Below, one piece after another: positions 21,153 to 29,752 of a stretch of DNA of 64,000 nucleotides. The stretch lies in NCBI RefSeq assembly GCF_030332225.1, contig NZ_JAOWIF010000044.1:31946-95945 (forward strand), in the 5' to 3' direction. The notes under the pieces are model-generated. The model was not told the origin of the DNA. It saw nothing but the letters and a program-made list of their open reading frames with translations, and searched no databases. Position numbers and translations under genes: made by a program. Position 1 is the stretch's first letter, and each line of letters begins with the position of its first letter. The DNA is from Citrobacter sp. Cu233. GTDB taxonomy: Bacteria > Pseudomonadota > Gammaproteobacteria > Enterobacterales > Enterobacteriaceae.

Positions 21153-21941
21153 TCAGGAGGCTTCCTGATCTGCAATGACCAGTTCAATATTCTCTACATC
21201 AAGTAATTGCTTGAAAGAGTTTGGTGGTGGGGCATCGGTAAAAAATGCCCGTATTTTACGTATATTACCAATAGACACAGCGGCCGATGCGGAGAATTTA
21301 GTGTGATCGGCAACCAATAGCGTATTTCGCGTATGTTTGATCATGGTCTTGGCGACAAGCGCCTCGTTAACATCAAATTCCAGCAGCGTACCGTCTTCTT
21401 CAATCGCGCCAATGCTGGTAATCAAATAGTCAGCACGGAACCCTTCAATAAAGTTCACTGCTCCAGGCCCAACGATACCGCCATTATGTGCACGTAATGT
21501 TCCACCGGGTACCATGACTTCAATATCTTGATTCTTATACAGGATTTGCGCGACGCGAAGGCTATTTGTGATGATGCGTAAGTCCCGACGGTTTAGCAAC
21601 GCTCGCGCGACGGCTTCCACCGTTGTACCAATGGTAATAAAAACCGTACAACGCTCCGGGAGATAATCGGCAACCGCTTCCGCAATCGCTTCTTTTTCCT
21701 GGGTAAGTGACAACTCTCGTTGTTCGAAGGCGGTATTCATGATGCTGGATACGCGTCCGGCTCCCCCATGATGGCGAGTGATCAGACCCTGCTCACTAAG
21801 CTTACGAATATCCCTGCGCACCGTTTGCGTGGAAACGTCCAGCAATTGCGCCAGCTCTTCGATATTCATATAGCCGCGTTCTGTAATGTAATGAACGAGT
21901 TGATCGTGTCGCGGATTACCGGTGACTTCAATGATGCTCAT
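21153..21941 (-). CDS. yihW: DeoR-family regulator of sulfoglycolysis YihW (CsqR)
   Basis: YihW represses the E. coli sulfoquinovose operon and is relieved by pathway intermediates. The 262-residue product starts after CAGGAG. It has a DeoR winged helix (NIEELAQLLDVSTQTVRRDIRKL, about residues 22-44), the family RHHGGAGR segment and a sugar-phosphate-binding C-terminal domain (ITIGTTVEAVARAL, ITSIGAIEEDG). It is strongly similar to E. coli YihW from memory. It is cotranscribed with yihV, 39 bp downstream of it, and convergent to yihN. Confidence 0.92.
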   Translation of the reverse strand: MSIIEVTGNPRHDQLVHYITERGYMNIEELAQLLDVSTQTVRRDIRKLSEQGLITRHHGGAGRVSSIMNTAFEQRELSLTQEKEAIAEAVADYLPERCTVFITIGTTVEAVARALLNRRDLRIITNSLRVAQILYKNQDIEVMVPGGTLRAHNGGIVGPGAVNFIEGFRADYLITSIGAIEEDGTLLEFDVNEALVAKTMIKHTRNTLLVADHTKFSASAAVSIGNIRKIRAFFTDAPPPNSFKQLLDVENIELVIADQEAS

Positions 21942-21980
21942 GAATACTCCTGGACTTCTTCCCCGTAAATACCGGCTATT

Positions 21981-22877
21981 TTACGCATAAAGTGACAAAA
22001 ATGATTCGGTTTGCGCACGATTAGGAATTCCGGCTCGTCCACCTGGCTGCGTGCATTTCATCGCTGCCACTGCGCTTGCGAAGCGAATCGCTTTCTCGGT
22101 CGACATTTTCTCCGCCAGGGCAACCGCCATGGCGCCATGGAAAACATCCCCTGCCCCGGTTGTATCTACCACATTGACAGAAAATGCAGCCTGTTGACAT
22201 AAATCTCCCTCTTCAATCCATTGTGATCCCTCTCCGCCCAACGTAACGTAAACTTTACCATCTGTGTGACTGGCGGCCAGTGTTAAAGCCTGCCCTGCAT
22301 CATCCAATCCGGTCATTCGCTTAAGTCCTGGAGTAGAGAAAACCGCATGATCGGCAAGCGCCACTAATGGCGTAATGTCTTGCGGGGTCATATCGGCATC
22401 CAGCAGCGTCAGTACCCCAGCGGCACGTGCCAGCTTGAAGGATTTTAATGTTCCCTCATGCCAGCGTACATCGGCCAGAACCACGTCATAGCGAGTAAAA
22501 TCAATCGATTCCAGCCACTGTGCATCCGTGTCCAGGTCAGGGCTCGGGTAATTTACTATGATGCGCTCCCCGTACTGATCGACCAAAATTGCAGACTGCG
22601 ATGAACGTGCATTGGGGTATTGACGGCAGAATTGTGTATTCACCCCCCAGTTGCGAAGCTCGTTCAACAACGTGTTCCCACAGCTATCGTCACCTACGCG
22701 GCCGATAAAATCGACATCGATACCGAGTCGGGCAATTGCTACTGCCGCTGTTGCCGCCGGGCCACCCCCTGTCTCCATATATTGATTTGACTGATATTTC
22801 CCCCCGCCATCAGGCAGGTTGTTCAGAGAATAGATTCGGTCCTGAACGGTGATTCCAACGCATGCAATTCTGGTCAT
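21981..22877 (-). CDS. yihV: 6-deoxy-6-sulfofructose kinase YihV
   Basis: YihV is a PfkB/ribokinase-family enzyme that phosphorylates sulfofructose (SF) with ATP to SF-1-phosphate. The 298 residues equal E. coli YihV. The GGGPAATAAVA motif (residues 37-47) follows Lys27 in the same position as E. coli, and the ATP/anion-hole motif DTTGAGD (238-244) holds catalytic D244. Overall identity to E. coli YihV appears high along the whole chain. It heads the yihVW operon, divergent from yihU, as in E. coli, but the cassette is inverted relative to its flanks. Confidence 0.92.
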   Translation of the reverse strand: MTRIACVGITVQDRIYSLNNLPDGGGKYQSNQYMETGGGPAATAAVAIARLGIDVDFIGRVGDDSCGNTLLNELRNWGVNTQFCRQYPNARSSQSAILVDQYGERIIVNYPSPDLDTDAQWLESIDFTRYDVVLADVRWHEGTLKSFKLARAAGVLTLLDADMTPQDITPLVALADHAVFSTPGLKRMTGLDDAGQALTLAASHTDGKVYVTLGGEGSQWIEEGDLCQQAAFSVNVVDTTGAGDVFHGAMAVALAEKMSTEKAIRFASAVAAMKCTQPGGRAGIPNRAQTESFLSLYA

Positions 22878-23049
22878 ATTTGTTTGGTCCTATGTGAACT
22901 TGTCTTCTTTTGTTCATTTTAATGACATAAATGATCAAATTAGTGACGCGTGCCTTGTTTTTAGTCATAAATTACAAATATGCTCAAAAACAGACGAAAA
23001 TGAGTTTTTAATTGTAATTATTTTGTCAACCTGAGGCAGGAGACCGTTC
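22878..23049. promoter_or_regulatory. Divergent yihV-yihU control region
   Basis: This AT-rich 172-bp region must hold both promoters and the YihW operator. GACGAAAATGA (22993-23003) and, in opposite orientation, TTCATTTTAATGA (22913-22925) form a loose inverted pair resembling DeoR-family half-sites. YihU has a strong AGGAG site at the right end, yihV an AGGA site at the left. The exact operator is not certain. Confidence 0.45.
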
Positions 23050-23940
23050 ATGACAACCGTTGCATTTTTGGGATTGGGACAGATGGGCAGCCCAATGGCT
23101 AACAACCTGTTGCAGCACGGACATACATTACGCGTGTTTGACGTAAACCAGCAGGCCGTTACGGAGTTAGTACAAAAAGGTGCGATTGCCGCCCAAACTC
23201 CAGCAGAGGCCGCTAAAGGCGCCGAATTTATTATCACCATGCTGCCAAATGGCGACATCGTTCGGTACGTGTTGCTGGGCAAAGATGGTGTGAGTGAAAG
23301 CATATCCCACGATGCGCTGGTGATTGATATGTCCACCATTCATCCATTACAGACCGATGCGTTGATTCATGAGATGCAAGAAAAAGGCATCAGCATGATG
23401 GATGCGCCAGTGGGTCGAACCTCTGTCAACGCCATCGATGGGACACTATTGATTCTCGCAGGGGGGACGTCTGAACAGGTTGAACGTGCGCGTCCAGTTT
23501 TGATGTGTATGGGCAACGAGTTGGTGGAAGCCGGTGGTCCTGGAATGGGGATCCGCGTGAAGCTTATCAACAACTACATGAGCATTGCGTTGAATGCCTT
23601 GTCAGCGGAAGCCGCAGTGCTTTGCGAATCCCTGGGATTAAGCCTGGATGTCGCTATTAAGGTCATGAGCGGTACTGCCGCAGGCAAGGGACACTTTACG
23701 ACAACCTGGCCTGGAAAAGTGCTGAAGGGCGATTTATCTCCGGCATTTATGGTGGACCTGGCATTGAAAGACCTGCGCATCGCTGTTGATGTCGCGAGTC
23801 AGACCGGTGCCCCGCTCAATATGGGGATGGCGGCAGAAACTTATTACGCCAGCGCCAGTGAAAGCGGCAGAGGCCGTCAGGACTGGAGCGCGCTGTTATC
23901 TCAGGTTCGTCAGCAGGCTGGCCGACCAGATTCTCTTTAA
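23050..23940 (+). CDS. yihU: Sulfolactaldehyde reductase YihU
   Basis: YihU reduces 3-sulfolactaldehyde with NADH to 2,3-dihydroxypropane-1-sulfonate (DHPS). This 296-residue beta-hydroxyacid dehydrogenase has the NAD motif GLGQMGSP (residues 8-15), substrate motif [11 protein letters not shown] (119-128) and catalytic Lys171. Arg123, Asn174 and Ser178, reported to hold the sulfonate in E. coli YihU, are all conserved at the same numbers, which supports a sulfonate rather than a generic hydroxyacid substrate. It is first in a rightward operon with yihT 25 bp downstream. Confidence 0.93.
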
Positions 23941-23965
23941 ATTTTAAACGTTCACAGGAGTTACT

Positions 23966-24853
23966 ATGTCTTCCCACAATACCCCATACACGCTGAAAGA
24001 TATTTCTCGCCCAGGCGGCGGATTTGCTATGTTGGCCGTCGATCAGCGTGAGGCTATGCGCCTGATGTTCGCTGCTTCCGGGCATCCAAAACCGGTTGCT
24101 GATAGCGTATTAACTGACTTTAAAGTCGCGGCAACCCAGATTCTGTCACCTTATGCTTCAGCGGTACTTGCTGATAAACAATTTTGCCTCGAACAGATCG
24201 TGTCACAAGGTGCGGTAGCCGATTCCTGTGGTCTGATTGTGGCGGCTGACCATTTTGTCCCTGGCAATGGTATTCCGGTTGATAGCGTTGAAATCGACAT
24301 GGCAATTGACCCGCATAAAGCCCGTGAAATGGGCGCAAAAGCAATGAAGCTGCTGGTGTTGTGGCGTAAAGATGAGCCGGCAGAAGCGCGTCTGGCTATG
24401 GTCGAAGAGTTTGTTCAACGTTGTCGTAGCGCCGGGTTGGTGAGCATCATCGAACCGGTCGTCCGCCCTCCACGCCGTGGTTGGGAATTCGATCGTGAAA
24501 GCGCCATTCTCGCTGCTGCGGCTGAACTTGGCGGTACTGACGCCGATCTCTATAAAGTCGAAATGCCATTAGGTGGTAAGGGTGATGAACAGATCCTGCT
24601 TACCGCATGTCAAAAGCTTCATGAACACATGAAAATGCCATGGGTCATTCTTTCCTCTGGGGTTGATGCCGATATCTTTGGGCGTGCAGTTCGCATCGCC
24701 ATGAAGGGTGGCGCTTCCGGGTTCCTTGCTGGGCGTGCTGTGTGGGCGTCGGTCGTGGGGGCTCAGGATCCGCAAACAATGCTGCGTGATGTGTCTGTCC
24801 CTCGTTTACAACGGCTGGCTGAAATTGTGGATGAAGGTATTTCTCAGCGTTAA
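23966..24853 (+). CDS. yihT: Sulfofructosephosphate aldolase YihT
   Basis: YihT is a class I (Schiff-base) aldolase that splits 6-deoxy-6-sulfofructose-1-phosphate into DHAP and sulfolactaldehyde. The 295-residue protein has [15 protein letters not shown] near the N-terminus, the lysine in [10 protein letters not shown] (Lys197, equivalent to Lys193 of characterised YihT) and Arg257 in FLAGRAVW (equivalent to the sulfonate-contacting Arg253). It is strongly similar to E. coli YihT. An AGGAG site precedes the ATG. It lies between yihU and the dehydrogenase gene in one operon. Confidence 0.93.
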
Positions 24854-24885
24854 TCACCCATTCTTAGTGAATCTGGAGCAGAACC

Positions 24886-25896
24886 ATGGAAAAAATTACC
24901 CAAGTTCTCTTTTCTAATATTGGGAAAGTGACGACCCAGTATATTGAGCTGCCGCACCAGGAACTTAAACCGCAGGAAGTTCGCATCGCTCCGGTATTCT
25001 ACGGAATTTGCGGCTCTGACCTGCATGTACTGAAGGGGGGGCATCCATTTGCAAAACCTCCGGTTGTGCCAGGGCATGAAATTGCAGCACGCGTAACGGA
25101 AGTGGGCAGTAAGGTGACAAATGTCAAAGTAGGCGATCATGTTGTTGTCGATCCGATTATGGCCTGTATGGAGTGCCGTGCCTGTAAGGCGGGTCGCTTC
25201 AATCTGTGCGAGCCGCCGCAGGTTGCTGGTTTCCGCGCGCCAGGATTTGCCCGCTCACAACATATTGTCCCGGCGCGAAACTGCCATGTTGCACCTGCCT
25301 CTCTGCCGCTGAAAGCACTGGCCTTTGCCGAGCCGGCTGCCTGTGCGCGTCACTGTGTGAGCCGGATGCCGAAAGCCTCGTTGGAGAGTGTGTTGGTGAT
25401 CGGCGCGGGAACCATTGGCTTATCCATTGTTCAGGCTTTGCGCATTATGGGCGCGGGAAAAATCACCGTGATCGAACCTGATGCTGCCAAGCGTGCATTA
25501 GCGTTAAAGCTTGGCGCGGCAGAAGTTTGGGCTCCGGGTGAACTGGATCCTCAGATTCGCTTTACGGGTGCGGTAGACGTTGTTGCTGCTCAAGCCACGC
25601 TGAATGATGCTTTTACCCACGTCTATGCCGGGGGAACGGTGGTATGCATGGGCGTACCGAGTGGCCCTCGTGAAATTCCGCTTCCTATGATGCAGCGTTT
25701 CGAACGCGATTTGCTCAATTCCGGCATGTACATCCCGGAAGATTTTGATGCGGTAATTGAGTGGCTGGCGGATGGACGCTTTGACACCAGTGAACTGGTG
25801 ACCGATCTCTTCCCGGTTGAAGATGCGGCGAAAGCATTTGAACGTGCGCAGCAAAATGACTCGATAAAAGTCATGCTGCAGTTTGCCGAGGCGTGA
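24886..25896 (+). CDS. Zinc-dependent MDR alcohol/polyol dehydrogenase
   Basis: This 336-residue medium-chain dehydrogenase resembles the sorbitol/threonine dehydrogenase group. Catalytic zinc ligands are Cys42 (ICGSDLH), His64-Glu65 (PGHE) and Glu149 (AFAEPAA). The structural zinc lobe has Cys94, 97, 100 and 108. The nucleotide site GAGTIG (173-178) with Glu197 at the end of the second strand predicts NAD(H). It lies 32 bp after yihT with a GGAG site, so it is part of the sulfoglycolysis operon. E. coli has no counterpart at this locus; yihS (isomerase) is missing instead. Oxidation of a sulfo-polyol, or of a hydroxyl on a sulfosugar, to yield sulfofructose is possible but unproven. Confidence 0.9.
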   Translation: MEKITQVLFSNIGKVTTQYIELPHQELKPQEVRIAPVFYGICGSDLHVLKGGHPFAKPPVVPGHEIAARVTEVGSKVTNVKVGDHVVVDPIMACMECRACKAGRFNLCEPPQVAGFRAPGFARSQHIVPARNCHVAPASLPLKALAFAEPAACARHCVSRMPKASLESVLVIGAGTIGLSIVQALRIMGAGKITVIEPDAAKRALALKLGAAEVWAPGELDPQIRFTGAVDVVAAQATLNDAFTHVYAGGTVVCMGVPSGPREIPLPMMQRFERDLLNSGMYIPEDFDAVIEWLADGRFDTSELVTDLFPVEDAAKAFERAQQNDSIKVMLQFAEA

Positions 25897-25913
25897 TGGT
25901 GTAACCCTCTGTC

Positions 25914-25937
25914 TGGCGCTGCTTCACGGCAGCGCCA
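25914..25937 (+). other. Intercistronic hairpin after the dehydrogenase gene
   Basis: TGGCGCTGC / GCAGCGCCA form a perfect 9-bp stem with loop TTCACG and no T-tract. It may stabilise or process the mRNA between the enzyme genes and the transporter genes. Confidence 0.5.
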
Positions 25938-25965
25938 TCCTACAACAATGAAAAAGGATACTGCG

Positions 25966-27399
25966 ATGAGTCACGTCACCAGTCCTGCACCTTATTCAAT
26001 CGGTCGTCCACAGGACGTGATTGATATTGTTAATAAACATTCAGCAGTAAATACCAGCGTTGGCATTATTTTCATCGCCCTCGGTGGCATCCTTATTGAT
26101 GCTTATCAGGCGGCGATGGTTGGGTTTGGTAACAAATATATCGCCTTGCAATTCGGTATATCACCAGGACTTGCGGCAACGGTTAACGCCTCTGTTTTAG
26201 TCGCGGCTCTGATTGGCGGACTACTGGCAAACCGCGTGATTAACCGCTTTGGCCAAAAGCGCGCATTTATCATCGGGATGGGGTTATGCACGATTGGTGC
26301 TGCGGCCGTTGCAATAGCCCCAAACATCTGGTGGGTGCTGGTTTGTCGCGTGATTATGGGGTTTGGTCTGGGTATTGATTTCCCGCTGGCAACGAATGCC
26401 GTCGCAGAGTTGCGTGGTTCAATATCCAAGAAAACTGGTTCGTCAGTCAACCTCTGGCAAATGGCCTGGTATGTCTCAACCACCGTTGTTTATCTCGTAC
26501 TGCTCCTGCTGCTGTTGTCGGGCATTGCCGAAGAACAATTATGGCGTTACGGGATTTTCGTTGGCGCGATTTTCGCGGTCATCATTATGATCCTGCGATA
26601 CTTTTTTATTGGTGAATCCGCAATGTGGGCGGCGCGAGTTGGGCGTTATGATGAAGCCTGCGGCATTCTGGCAAAGCGCTATGGTGTTCATGCTCGCGTT
26701 GCGATTTCGTCACAACGTGGTGATACCTCATCGGAAAAAACAGAAAGTAAGTTTCATGGTGGGTACGGCATCTTATTTAATTCACGCTATCGCAAACGGA
26801 CCATCCTTGGCTGTGTCGTGGCCACCATGCAGGCTTGGCAATACAACGCCGTGGGCGTTTATTTGCCGCTGACTCTGGCGGGGATACTGAGCGGAGGATT
26901 AACCGGTGCGCTCAGTGGTTCCGCAGTAGTGAATGCGCTGTGCGGGATTACTGGCGGGTTAATTGGTTCTCTTATCCTCCAGCGTTTGGGCACTCGTCTC
27001 CAGTCGATGTGTGGTTTTGCCATCGTAACGGTTGCGCTGCTGGCATTAGGCGCTCTGGCAACGACAAACCCATGGCTTTCTTTAGGTCTGCTGGGTGCGA
27101 TTATCTTCTTCCATTCTGCAGGTCCAGGTGGCTTAGGAATGACCATCGCCACGCTTTCTTATCCGCCAACGATCCGTCCGACAGGTGTTGGATTCGCGCG
27201 CGCCATTATGCGCACTGGAGCGATAGCTGGGCTTATCTTTTGGCCTATGTTGTGGGGAGCGTTAAAGACGGAAGCGTTCTATTGGCTGGCGATCGTTCCT
27301 TTCATCGGATTCCTGACGTGCGTTTTGATTAAGTGGGAACCACTGGGTGCGAATGTTGACGCTGAAGATGCAGAGGTATTAGCGGAGTTGGAGAAATAA
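25966..27399 (+). CDS. MFS sugar-porter-like transporter in the sulfoglycolysis cassette
   Basis: This 477-residue integral membrane protein has about twelve hydrophobic segments. The N-terminal half contains LANRVINRFGQKRAFIIGMG (motif A position, loop 2-3) and CRVIMGFGLGIDFPL (helix 4-5 region), both like sugar-porter and organic-anion MFS carriers. I choose the second in-frame ATG because AAAGGA lies 8 nt upstream; the first lies six codons earlier. Substrate is not known. Operon position makes sulfosugar uptake or DHPS export likely. It replaces the GPH-family YihO/YihP of E. coli. Confidence 0.85.
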   Translation: MSHVTSPAPYSIGRPQDVIDIVNKHSAVNTSVGIIFIALGGILIDAYQAAMVGFGNKYIALQFGISPGLAATVNASVLVAALIGGLLANRVINRFGQKRAFIIGMGLCTIGAAAVAIAPNIWWVLVCRVIMGFGLGIDFPLATNAVAELRGSISKKTGSSVNLWQMAWYVSTTVVYLVLLLLLLSGIAEEQLWRYGIFVGAIFAVIIMILRYFFIGESAMWAARVGRYDEACGILAKRYGVHARVAISSQRGDTSSEKTESKFHGGYGILFNSRYRKRTILGCVVATMQAWQYNAVGVYLPLTLAGILSGGLTGALSGSAVVNALCGITGGLIGSLILQRLGTRLQSMCGFAIVTVALLALGALATTNPWLSLGLLGAIIFFHSAGPGGLGMTIATLSYPPTIRPTGVGFARAIMRTGAIAGLIFWPMLWGALKTEAFYWLAIVPFIGFLTCVLIKWEPLGANVDAEDAEVLAELEK

Positions 27400-27406
27400 C
27401 AAGCAA

Positions 27407-27432
27407 GCGCGCCGGAATATATCGGCGCGTTT
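27407..27432 (+). terminator. Weak terminator-like hairpin between the two transporter genes
   Basis: CGCGCCG / CGGCGCG with an 8-base loop is followed by only three T residues. It may attenuate expression of the downstream MHS carrier and epimerase rather than stop it. Confidence 0.4.
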
Positions 27433-27502
27433 CCTAAAAAAGCTCCTCCACTTGTAAGTGGTTTTATTCCGTGGATTTCTCGCCGACCCGGAGAGGGAAA
27501 TT

Positions 27503-28828
27503 ATGGCTGAAAGAGAACTGGTACCAAAAGAAGGGCTATCCGGCAAAGCCATGAGACGTGTTGTCATGGGCAGTTTTGCCGGTGCGTTGATGGAGTGGTA
27601 CGATTTTTTTATTTTTGGAACAGCAGCTGGACTGGTCTTCGCTCCGTTGTTTTTCCCTGACAGTGATCCTTTTATTGGGTTGATCGCTGCATTCGCAACT
27701 TTTGGTGTAGGCTTTTTATCGCGTCCATTGGGTGGCATTGTTTTTGGCCATTTTGGCGATAAAGTTGGCCGCAAAATAACGTTAATTTGGACATTAGGTA
27801 TCGTCGGTACCTCAACGTTCTTAATCGGTTTTATACCTACCTACCAGGATATTGGAATCTGGGCCCCAATTATATTGATGGTTCTACGCCTGATTCAGGG
27901 ATTTGGCCTCGGGGGGGAATATGGCGGTGCGGCGTTGATGACTATTGAATCTGCGCCTGAAGGGAAGCGCGGATTTTTAGGTTCGCTCCCGCAAACGGCG
28001 GCCTCGGTTGGGATTATGCTGGCAACAGGTGTGTTCGCACTGTGTAATCACTTCCTGACTCAGGAGGAGTTTCTTTCCTGGGGATGGCGAATCCCATTTT
28101 GGCTTTCTGCCGTCATGTTGATTGTCGGATTGTTCATTCGACTTCATACCGAAGAGACGCTGGACTTTCAAAAACAAAAAACGGCCAGGTCGCATGAAAA
28201 ATTGGCACCGCCGCTGATTGAACTCTTCCGTAAACACCCTCGTAATATTTTGTTGGCACTTGGTGCCAGGTTGGCTGAGAGCGTTTCGTCCAACATCATT
28301 AACGCTTTTGGGATTGTTTATATTTCCAGTCAGCTCGCATTATCAAGGGATATTCCGCTAACCGGTATGCTTATCGCTTCGGCGATTGGCATTGTAAGTT
28401 GTCCCCTGATTGGTCGGATTTCTGACCGTGTTGGGCAACGGAAAATGTACCTGTTTGGGGCAGGTTTTTGCATCCTGTTTGCCTTTCCCTTTTTCCTGCT
28501 GCTGGACACGAAAAGCACGCTCATTATCTGGTGCAGTATGATCCTGGGTTATAACCTCGGGCCAACGATGATGTTTGCTGTACAACCCACGTTATTTACT
28601 CGCATGTTCGGTACCCGGGTCCGTTACACCGGACTTTCATTTGCCTACCAATTCTCCGCGATTTTGGGTGGGTTAAGCCCGCTAATAGCGTCCAGCCTGT
28701 TGGCTTTGGGTGGTGGTAAGCCGTGGTATGTCGCACTGTTTTTGTTTGTTATCTCAATACTTTCATTTATTTGCGTCTGGCTTATCGAACCACATTCAGA
28801 CAATAAAAATGACGCTAACGCGAATTAA
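27503..28828 (+). CDS. MHS-family (ProP/ShiA-like) MFS transporter
   Basis: This 441-residue carrier belongs to the metabolite:H+ symporter family. The signature VMGSFAGALMEWYDFFIFG near residue 20 and the FGHFGDKVGRK loop (motif A) are clear, as is RLIQGFGLGGEYGGA. I start at the ATG with GGAGAGG 6 nt upstream; the GTG-initiated extension of 15 codons has no support. Family members carry small zwitterions or organic acids such as betaine, proline, shikimate and dicarboxylates. In this operon it could import or export a sulfonate, but this is inference. Confidence 0.88.
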   Translation: MAERELVPKEGLSGKAMRRVVMGSFAGALMEWYDFFIFGTAAGLVFAPLFFPDSDPFIGLIAAFATFGVGFLSRPLGGIVFGHFGDKVGRKITLIWTLGIVGTSTFLIGFIPTYQDIGIWAPIILMVLRLIQGFGLGGEYGGAALMTIESAPEGKRGFLGSLPQTAASVGIMLATGVFALCNHFLTQEEFLSWGWRIPFWLSAVMLIVGLFIRLHTEETLDFQKQKTARSHEKLAPPLIELFRKHPRNILLALGARLAESVSSNIINAFGIVYISSQLALSRDIPLTGMLIASAIGIVSCPLIGRISDRVGQRKMYLFGAGFCILFAFPFFLLLDTKSTLIIWCSMILGYNLGPTMMFAVQPTLFTRMFGTRVRYTGLSFAYQFSAILGGLSPLIASSLLALGGGKPWYVALFLFVISILSFICVWLIEPHSDNKNDANAN

Positions 28829-28858
28829 CTTCTTACCGAAATATCAGAGAACAATCCT

Positions 28859-29752
28859 ATGAACACTGAACTGAATACCGAACATCGACAAGCATTACAG
28901 CATGCGTTTGATACCCCCTGGCCGGGGCCTGTGGCGAAATCTGTTCTGCTTGAAAAAGGCAATATCCGCCTGCAGGTTTTCCCGCAAGATGGTGCCAGAA
29001 TTACGTCATTACAGGCGTTTGGTTTTGAAGTATTGCGGCAATGGGAACCGCAGCGTAGAGCGTTTCAATACGGTTGCTTCCCCATGGTGCCCTGGGCTGG
29101 TCGCCTTGGCTACGCGACGTTGAACGTAGGGGAGAATCAGTATGCTTTGCCCGCCAATAAGCCGCCCCATGCTTTGCACGGTATGGCCTGTTATTCAGCG
29201 TGGGAAGTCGTAGAACAAAAGACGGATGCGTTGACGCTGCGTATGCCGTTGGATACGCCATGGCCCTGGCAGGGCGAGGTGCTGCAAATGTTGACTCTTG
29301 AAGATGACACGCTAATTCTGCGCCTTGAAATTCATTCGGTCGCAGACTCATTCCCAGCCTCAGCGGGTTGGCATCCCTGGTTTGCTAAACACCTCGACCC
29401 ACAGCAGGAAGACGCAGAGTTGCAGGTGCTATTTGATGCTGACTGGCAGGAAGAGGCCGGGAGCAACGAATTGCCGACAGGTAAGAAGGTCACCCCACAA
29501 TCGGGTCCGTGGGATGATTGTTTCGGCTTTTCATCCGGTCTGAAGGTCAGATTACAATGGCCAGGTAAGTTGAGCATGGCGATGACATCAGCTGCACAAA
29601 GCCTGGTTGTATTTGATAAACAACCCGACGCGACATGTGTTAACCCACTCACTCAGGCACCTAATGCAATTAACCTGACGCCGCAGTTTGTCAGCGTTGG
29701 CCTTCCGCTGGTGATTGAGTCTCGCTGGCAATTTAACGATGAAGGCGAATAA
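28859..29752 (+). CDS. Aldose 1-epimerase-like protein (mutarotase family)
   Basis: This 297-residue GalM-superfamily protein shows the FPMVPWAGR motif (residues 74-82), the catalytic-type histidine in HALHG (His107), AGWHPWF in mid-chain and VNPLTQAPNAIN near the end. E. coli carries the SQ mutarotase YihR in its operon. This may be a diverged counterpart, but I do not see enough identity to call it yihR. A mutarotase implies that a reducing sugar enters the pathway. It is the last gene of the rightward operon; no strong ribosome site is visible. Confidence 0.82.
   Translation: MNTELNTEHRQALQHAFDTPWPGPVAKSVLLEKGNIRLQVFPQDGARITSLQAFGFEVLRQWEPQRRAFQYGCFPMVPWAGRLGYATLNVGENQYALPANKPPHALHGMACYSAWEVVEQKTDALTLRMPLDTPWPWQGEVLQMLTLEDDTLILRLEIHSVADSFPASAGWHPWFAKHLDPQQEDAELQVLFDADWQEEAGSNELPTGKKVTPQSGPWDDCFGFSSGLKVRLQWPGKLSMAMTSAAQSLVVFDKQPDATCVNPLTQAPNAINLTPQFVSVGLPLVIESRWQFNDEGE

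Follow-up and report, generated by a model that had tools for sequence, protein, structure and literature searches.

How is a sulfoglycolytic core supplied with its ketose when the isomerase of the known pathway is missing? The question is raised by a locus of Citrobacter sp. Cu233, located within a window of 64,000 nucleotides (assembly GCF_030332225.1, contig NZ_JAOWIF010000044.1, positions 31,946 to 95,945), in which eight genes occupy the site between yihN and yihX. Homologs of YihW, YihV, YihU and YihT from the sulfo-Embden-Meyerhof-Parnas (sulfo-EMP) operon of Escherichia coli K-12 are encoded together with a zinc-dependent medium-chain dehydrogenase (MDR), two carriers and an aldose-1-epimerase-like protein, an arrangement hereafter named the short cassette. 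With a probability of about 0.5, it represents a complete alternative sulfosugar operon, in which the classical entry block (porin, YihO, YihP, YihQ, YihR and YihS) would be replaced by another supply of the ketose. All eight open reading frames (ORFs) of 21153..29752 are open and complete; yihW and yihV lie on the minus strand, yihU, yihT and the genes for the MDR, the MFS carrier, the MHS carrier and the epimerase-like protein follow on the plus strand, and the whole is inverted relative to K-12. Loci of other genomes are cited by number (L001 and so on). The features are:

21153..21941, minus strand: yihW/csqR-type DeoR regulator, 70.9% identical to K-12 CsqR (YihW) and 92% to the regulator of the short cassette of E. 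coli L001
21981..22877, minus strand: yihV-type sulfofructose kinase (PfkB), 64.1% identical to K-12 YihV; best PDB hit sulfofructose kinase 7ag6; Asn109 and Arg138 kept
22878..23049, no strand: promoter/operator region of the divergent genes yihV and yihU; an alignment with K-12 and six further cassettes has a mean column identity of 53%
22967..22995, plus strand: 29-bp block, candidate operator; 27 of its 29 bases agree with the yihU/yihV intergenic region of K-12
23050..23940, plus strand: yihU-type sulfolactaldehyde reductase, 72.6% identical to K-12 YihU; 562 bits against a cut-off of 348; Arg123, Lys171, Asn174 and Ser178 kept
23966..24853, plus strand: yihT-type class I sulfofructose-1-phosphate aldolase, 67.7% identical to K-12 YihT; Lys193 and Arg253 kept
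24886..25896, plus strand: zinc-dependent NAD-type MDR, proposed stand-in for the isomerase step; zinc ligands, structural Cys, and GxGxxG followed by Glu197
25948..27399, plus strand: MFS carrier (2A0115 type), suggested exporter of 2,3-dihydroxypropane-1-sulfonate (DHPS); 96 bits, cut-off 418.6
27458..28828, plus strand: MHS-family carrier resembling shikimate transporters, the proposed importer; it scores 411.6 bits with the shikimate transporter model (cut-off 538)
28859..29752, plus strand: aldose-1-epimerase-like protein, YphB-type; PF01263 at 79.9 bits against 27; Asn at the usual Glu position

A sequence-only reading of this DNA had taken regulator, kinase, reductase and aldolase for relatives of the E. 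coli sulfo-EMP genes, which the identities of 64-73% to K-12 bear out; the retention of Arg123, Asn174 and Ser178 in YihU and of the Schiff-base lysine (Lys193) and Arg253 in YihT, to which it had pointed, is likewise seen in the alignments (positions of both proteins in K-12 numbering). All 22 aligned rows of YihU have Lys171, Asn174 and Ser178, and 21 of them have Arg123, L039 being the exception with Lys. YihT, whose best PDB hits were 7ag1 and 7ag7, has Lys193 and Arg253 in all 15 aligned rows. Asn109 and Arg138 of YihV, which we take to be residues of the substrate pocket, are present in 20 and 21 of 23 rows, respectively; L039 and L040 differ at both positions, and L029, with a split frame, is gapped at 109. 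The kinase, the sulfofructose-1-phosphate aldolase and the reductase of the sulfo-EMP pathway are each found among the window proteins; an isomerase converting sulfoquinovose (SQ) to sulfofructose (YihS or SqvD) was not found in the window's genome. Because this defining step was looked for and not identified, the cassette is not classed as a sulfo-EMP system, though its core resembles one.

The genome-wide search that the sequence-only reading had proposed returned no orthologue of yihS or yihQ: no match to K-12 YihS was obtained at E<=1e-80 and none to K-12 YihQ at E<=1e-40, and a location of either gene elsewhere in this genome was rejected. PF07221 was also without a match in the whole genome, a result that is weak alone, since the E. 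coli control was silent too, as if the control strain carried the short cassette. yihO, yihP and ompL are absent from the locus, which is where they were sought. The earlier statement that the classical genes are missing therefore stands for yihS and yihQ in the whole genome and for the entire block at the locus. YihQ-like proteins of 26-29% identity occur in 13 of the 22 genomes with a short cassette, the window's genome not being among them, which holds one PF02952 gene on another contig. SqvD belongs to PF02952 according to the text consulted of PMC9594981.

The extent of the replacement is given by L143, the locus of a congeneric species that carries the classical cassette. The flanks of the two loci share 87-88% DNA identity, on one side as far as 21147 and on the other from 29762 onward, and since identity ends and resumes there, the replaced block is the eight-gene cassette, to about 10 bases on either side. 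The cassette genes shared by both match at only 67% and are inverted.

The module recurs widely, as a search of other genomes that had been suggested at the outset made clear: it was found in 16 genera and in 1,305 E. coli genomes. Of the 22 genomes with a short cassette, 21, including the window's, had theirs read at length, and these come from 16 genera; the cassette of the remaining genome, G081, was seen within a stretch of 4 kb (L013). All 21 encode regulator, kinase, aldolase, MDR and MHS carrier, and all except L040 also encode YihU, the MFS carrier and the epimerase-like protein; yihS, yihQ, yihO and yihP were found in none of 20 loci scanned. The four genes after yihT belong to the cassette, and the evidence speaks against the cassette being a remnant. 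Between the window and E. coli, the ratio of nonsynonymous to synonymous changes (pN/pS) was 0.06-0.21, from 0.06 for the MDR to as much as 0.21 for the epimerase-like gene, compared to 0.05-0.18 for six flanking genes, with synonymous sites near saturation; the cassette is under purifying selection between the two.

The aldolase varies among the cassettes. YihT is encoded in 13 of the 21 cassettes and a class II aldolase in eight (L033, L034, L036-L041), of one kind in six (L033, L034, L036, L037, L038, and L041 at 60% identity) and of another in L039 and L040. Two of the six, from L033 and L041, were scanned and scored best with the class II fructose-1,6-bisphosphate aldolase model, at 343.7 and 330 bits and below its cut-off of 423. 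The kinases paired with the second kind (L039:4590-5486, L040:5918-6805) are accompanied by MDR, MHS carrier and a CsqR-like regulator as elsewhere. In L040, the loss of YihU coincides with that of the MFS carrier, and this joint absence, a single case, fits a role of the carrier as DHPS exporter. An aldehyde dehydrogenase gene (L040:12702-14180) lies near the MDR-MHS pair of this sole cassette without YihU. Its product reached no NCBIfam cut-off among the best 25 models and may oxidise sulfolactaldehyde or belong with a neighbouring enolase-like gene.

Complete E. coli genomes in RefSeq, a biased sample, carry the cassette in about 24% of cases: a megablast search with the region matched 1,317 of 5,426 genomes, and in 1,305 of these a single place accounts for 80% or more of the query. 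In L001, the one E. coli stretch opened, the genes from yihL through yihX are ordered as in the window. The location between yihN and yihX and the inversion noted by the sequence-only reading are confirmed, while its wording that the cassette is reversed relative to E. coli holds only against the K-12 type, since 1,305 of the 5,426 genomes share the arrangement. Chance or misreading was rejected as an origin of the cassette in view of eight long ORFs with family matches and of the 1,305 genomes with at least 80% of the stretch. A recent mobile insertion was also rejected, with no MDR match among 72,556 PLSDB plasmids (E<=1e-80) and GC contents of 48-54% for the cassette genes and 44-53% for six genes of the flanks; the cassette is chromosomal except for two E. 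coli matches in records that are labelled plasmid.

Classical and short cassettes exclude each other. Of the 5,426 E. coli genomes, 1,316 matched the MDR gene and 3,984 matched K-12-type yihS; in 1,315 and 3,964 of them, respectively, the match covered 80% or more of the query. A joint query composed of 300 bases of each gene matched 5,288 genomes, none at two places and none with 80% coverage, and so no E. coli genome holds both fragments. Among 392 sampled genomes of the bacterial family, 22, from 16 genera, have the MDR and 59, from 29 genera, have YihS; the two sets share no genome (P=0.025, ignoring phylogeny). Counted among these 59 are L155 and L156, with YihS-like proteins of 45% and 41% identity, yet without a classical yih cassette. 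Eight genera of this sample contain both cassette types, in different species, and YihS is present in each of the five further members sampled from the window's genus. In a class-wide sample, the MDR was found in 1 of 369 genomes at E<=1e-90, the window's own; the MDR family may therefore be confined to this bacterial family. A contig scan with two motifs shared by many MDRs returned at least 80 loci, of which only L055, L056 and L057, not counted among the 21, are cassettes; the others encode MDRs of 28-39% identity without kinase, aldolase and reductase together.

Pairs of loci within one genus record the exchange itself. The classical L147 and the alternative L037 share proteins YihW, YihV and YihU at 100%, 98% and 91% identity, and their DNA is 95% identical from the flank through yihW and yihV to near the end of yihU, then unrelated, and 94% identical again in the far flank. 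The block enclosed measures 9.0 kb in L147 (YihT, YihS, YihR, YihQ, YihP, YihO and OmpL) and 6.9 kb in L037 (class II aldolase, MDR, MFS and MHS carriers and a split epimerase-like frame). The same pattern was found between L147 and L036, in which the epimerase-like frame is whole, at DNA identities of 91% and 88%. In another genus, L148 and L038 share YihW, YihV and YihU at 85-90% protein identity and one flank; their far flanks gave no match within the stretches compared. Because near-identical cores and flanks enclose unrelated blocks in L147 and L037, entry blocks have been exchanged behind a constant regulator-kinase-reductase core. The two kinases, 98% identical, differ at six positions, none of them 109 or 138, and from this identity the kinase should receive the same ketose, sulfofructose, in both types of block. 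A YphB-like protein has also taken the place of the mutarotase YihR, which argues against SQ as the entry compound. In a tree of combined YihW, YihV and YihU, from which L040 was left out for want of YihU, the window type forms its own clade beside the classical one.

The dehydrogenase has the features of a zinc-dependent polyol dehydrogenase, namely catalytic zinc, structural zinc and NAD motif. The catalytic zinc ligands Cys42, His64, Glu65 and Glu149, the structural Cys94, 97, 100 and 108, Gly173, 175 and 178 of the NAD motif and Glu197 are invariant among ten sequences. Over the alignment, the protein has an identity of about 29% with both RspB and LgoD; its profile retrieved RspB, a ketose reductase and an uncharacterised MDR from the PDB at E<=1e-40, and a fold search retrieved general MDRs, including sorbitol, idonate, galactitol-1-phosphate and DHPS dehydrogenases. 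The AlphaFold2 model has a mean predicted local distance difference test score (pLDDT) of 77, with residues 45-62, 106-119 and 257-280 below 50. Arg117 is invariant in the MDR clade and, among nine K-12 MDRs, common only to GatD, which is no more than a hint.

The epimerase-like protein is nearer to K-12 YphB (26%) than to YihR (22%). It belongs to PF01263 by score. In place of the Glu of the VEP motif of E. coli YihR, the catalytic residue of the E-P motif in aldose 1-epimerases, the window protein has Asn. The Asn type is shared by the window, L001, L041 and, apart from L035, every YihT-type cassette whose motif is readable, and the Glu type by L033-L039 and L057; no such motif was found in L029. 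At 29621-29650 of the window, the Asn stands within a well-kept motif, QPDATCVNPL, of one cassette group, and the other group has Glu there. The function of this protein is the least certain step of the pathway proposed below.

Gene content, residue conservation, recurrence, exclusion and block swap were observed; every reaction that follows is one we infer for this organism. The MHS carrier would import a sulfonated polyol, e.g. 6-deoxy-6-sulfo-glucitol or -mannitol, and the Zn/NAD dehydrogenase would oxidise the carbon adjoining the terminal CH2OH to yield 6-deoxy-6-sulfofructose, whose furanose anomers the epimerase-like protein may equilibrate. YihV would then phosphorylate C1, YihT, or the class II aldolase in other genera, would release dihydroxyacetone phosphate (DHAP) and sulfolactaldehyde, YihU would reduce the latter to DHPS and the MFS carrier would export it. 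A dehydrogenase can form a ketose from an alditol and performs no simple aldose isomerisation. GatD and LgoD oxidise the carbon adjoining the CH2OH end of phosphate- or carboxylate-ended alditols and yield a ketose with the acid group at C6; the proposed conversion of a 6-deoxy-6-sulfo-alditol to sulfofructose would be the sulfonate analogue of this chemistry. The cassette is in all likelihood a functional sulfosugar operon, and entry probably proceeds without an aldose-ketose isomerase; a sulfo-alditol as the substrate is our tentative choice, at slightly less than even odds. Regarding the suggestion of the sequence-only reading that the YihV-YihT-YihU core is fed differently, another reaction is well supported by the exclusion of yihS, the recurrence in 16 genera and the block swap, and another substrate is a supposition. 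Catabolism of another sulfosugar, sulfofucose, is in print (PMC12421959, as far as consulted).

Several observations weigh against this pathway. The kinases of L039 and L040 are only 47% identical to YihV and have Val in place of Asn109 and no Arg138 (2 of 21 cassettes), so these two cassettes may act on another substrate. L040 also lacks YihU, with no orthologue elsewhere in its genome (G027; best 38%). In L029 (genome G387) yihV is split and the epimerase-like frame shortened, and in L037 (genome G243) the latter is split, which may reflect decay or sequencing error. The two cassettes are alternative alleles at a single site, which in part accounts for the exclusion with yihS. The joint query fell 12 genomes short of the 5,300 summed from the single searches, presumably owing to partial genes, so remnants of one cassette may persist beside the other. 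The swap was seen in cassettes with class II aldolases, and the same ketose for the window is an extrapolation from a separate clade. The alignment has gaps around Arg117, and the model, of low confidence in this loop, cannot place the residue. To our knowledge, no natural sulfo-alditol is known; no open-licence paper was found that names 6-deoxy-6-sulfo-alditols, nor one with both sulfofructose and sorbitol dehydrogenase. In the text consulted of PMC12608037, the short cassette of E. coli Nissle 1917 was not induced by SQ, which fits another inducer and also disuse, and its YihW was released, weakly, by SQ itself.

The same lack of induction, with the weaker binding by YihW (PMC12608037), would be expected of a truncated remnant without SQ catabolism, kept for regulatory or no reason, which is the reading of that paper, and broken frames in two of 21 cassettes point the same way. 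Such decay appears quite improbable for a module found in 16 genera, with intact frames in 19 of the 21 cassettes (L040 being judged by the fewer genes that it has), whose MDR has a pN/pS comparable with the flanking genes, of which 1,305 of 1,317 matching E. coli genomes keep at least 80%, and whose four further genes are no leftovers of the classical cassette. A pathway still acting on SQ is somewhat easier to defend, though unlikely; the dehydrogenase would serve as a redox shuttle (C1 reduction, C2 oxidation), or the isomerase would be encoded elsewhere. Growth of Nissle 1917 on SQ was reported to match that of K-12, its YihW is SQ-responsive, the epimerase-like gene hints at a ring sugar, and the PF02952 gene of the window's genome is of the SqvD family. 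Yet that growth medium contained 5% LB, no mention of a 'no carbon' control was found in the text consulted (PMC12608037) and SQ did not induce; moreover, the window's genome has no YihS or YihQ orthologue, and the replacement of YihR and YihS while YihW, YihV and YihU stay is hard to square with an SQ substrate.

Just as improbable as a remnant is a pathway for a non-sulfonated sugar, like the K-12 ydj cluster or tagatose metabolism: the architecture is similar to ydjEFGHIJKL, four class II aldolases compared are 36-39% identical to YdjI, and L039 and L040 have lost the kinase pocket residues, whereas nearly all aligned rows keep the key residues of YihU, YihT and YihV and the kinase of L037 is 98% identical to that of a classical cassette. 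Finally, C3 sulfonates such as DHPS might be the substrates of the dehydrogenase, which would then act last in the pathway, with the entry step out of view. HpsP, a zinc MDR for S-DHPS according to the text consulted of PMC11131964, is among its sequence and fold matches (8wwd), at 104 bits and so below RspB, threonine and ketose dehydrogenases (119-133 bits); such an activity would undo YihU and leave no isomerase for entry, and L040 keeps the MDR without a YihU orthologue; this is the least probable of the alternatives.

Extended to all carriers of the cassette, the preferred alternative sulfosugar operon becomes a dehydrogenase-gated sulfoglycolysis, by which about a quarter of E. coli (including Nissle 1917, judging from the short cassette published for it) and further genera of enterobacteria might use a sulfonated sugar alcohol via sulfofructose, the yih site being a slot with two alleles; this broader proposal is possible and a shade more doubtful than the sulfo-alditol itself. 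If true, strains would be specialised for SQ or for another sulfosugar, and about 24% of the complete E. coli genomes would possess a sulfoglycolytic operon with a substrate nobody has named. A pool of sulfonated sugar besides SQ would then exist in the gut or the environment, with a further bacterial source of DHPS as feedstock for sulfide-producing bacteria, and the published view of the short cassette would shift from decayed to specialised.

The 29-bp candidate operator is also kept in L001, L025 and L028, and as a short core only in L033, L036 and L039; the pattern, picked after the alignment was seen, has one match in the window and none in 100 shuffles. At some loci, other elements were noticed. 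A 35-base stretch (L144:18755-18789) has five matches in L044, four of which are spaced by 177 bases, and probably belongs to a repeat; an ORF of 912-914 amino acids lies between the epimerase-like gene and yihX in three genomes (L026:13697-16441, L042:1216-3954, L043:1837-4575).

The E. coli part of the cassette has been published. Kaznadzey et al. (2025, PMC12608037) describe, in the text consulted, a short reversed yihTUVW cassette without yihOPQRS, commoner in pathogens, which they call truncated, and theirs was the only open-licence paper found to treat the cassette by name. In its main text, to which the word search was confined, 'dehydrogenase' (three uses) and 'epimerase' (one) all concern other enzymes. 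Strains with only yihSTUVW are mentioned in the consulted part of PMC5816610, and the consulted part of a 2026 review (PMC12890257) yielded no mention of Nissle or Enterobacter. The view of the sequence-only reading that the variant is undescribed thus fails for the yih content and inversion in E. coli; new here, relative to the texts consulted, are the four accompanying genes as part of the cassette, its spread to other genera, the exchange of the aldolase and the proposed function.

Among known systems, the K-12 cluster ydjEFGHIJKL likewise combines a DeoR-type regulator, a PfkB kinase, a class II aldolase, zinc MDRs and carriers, but its kinase is 26% identical and it is annotated for octuluronates. 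The routes of GatD and LgoD share a zinc MDR that oxidises the carbon beside the CH2OH of an acid-ended alditol; in contrast, the MDR described here is only 24.5% and 28.9% identical to these over the alignment, and its proposed substrate is a sulfonate. In the hybrid sulfo-EMP/EMP2 clusters (SqvD, SqiA), a class II aldolase takes the place of YihT, as in L033, L034 and L036-L041, whereas the SQ isomerase SqvD is present there, according to the text consulted (PMC9594981), and none is among the identified genes of these loci. The K-12 sulfo-EMP operon has homologous regulator, kinase, aldolase and reductase (64-73%), the divergent layout and the candidate operator in common with the window, whose locus differs in its inversion and in carrying MDR, MFS, MHS and YphB-like genes instead of isomerase, sulfoquinovosidase, YihR, YihO, YihP and OmpL. 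Closest is the short yih cassette of E. coli, with yihTUVW reversed at the same site and no yihOPQRS, a description that both L001 and the window fit; the text consulted of PMC12608037 names no dehydrogenase, carrier or epimerase gene of that cassette, whereas here four such genes recur, in other genera and with other aldolases too.

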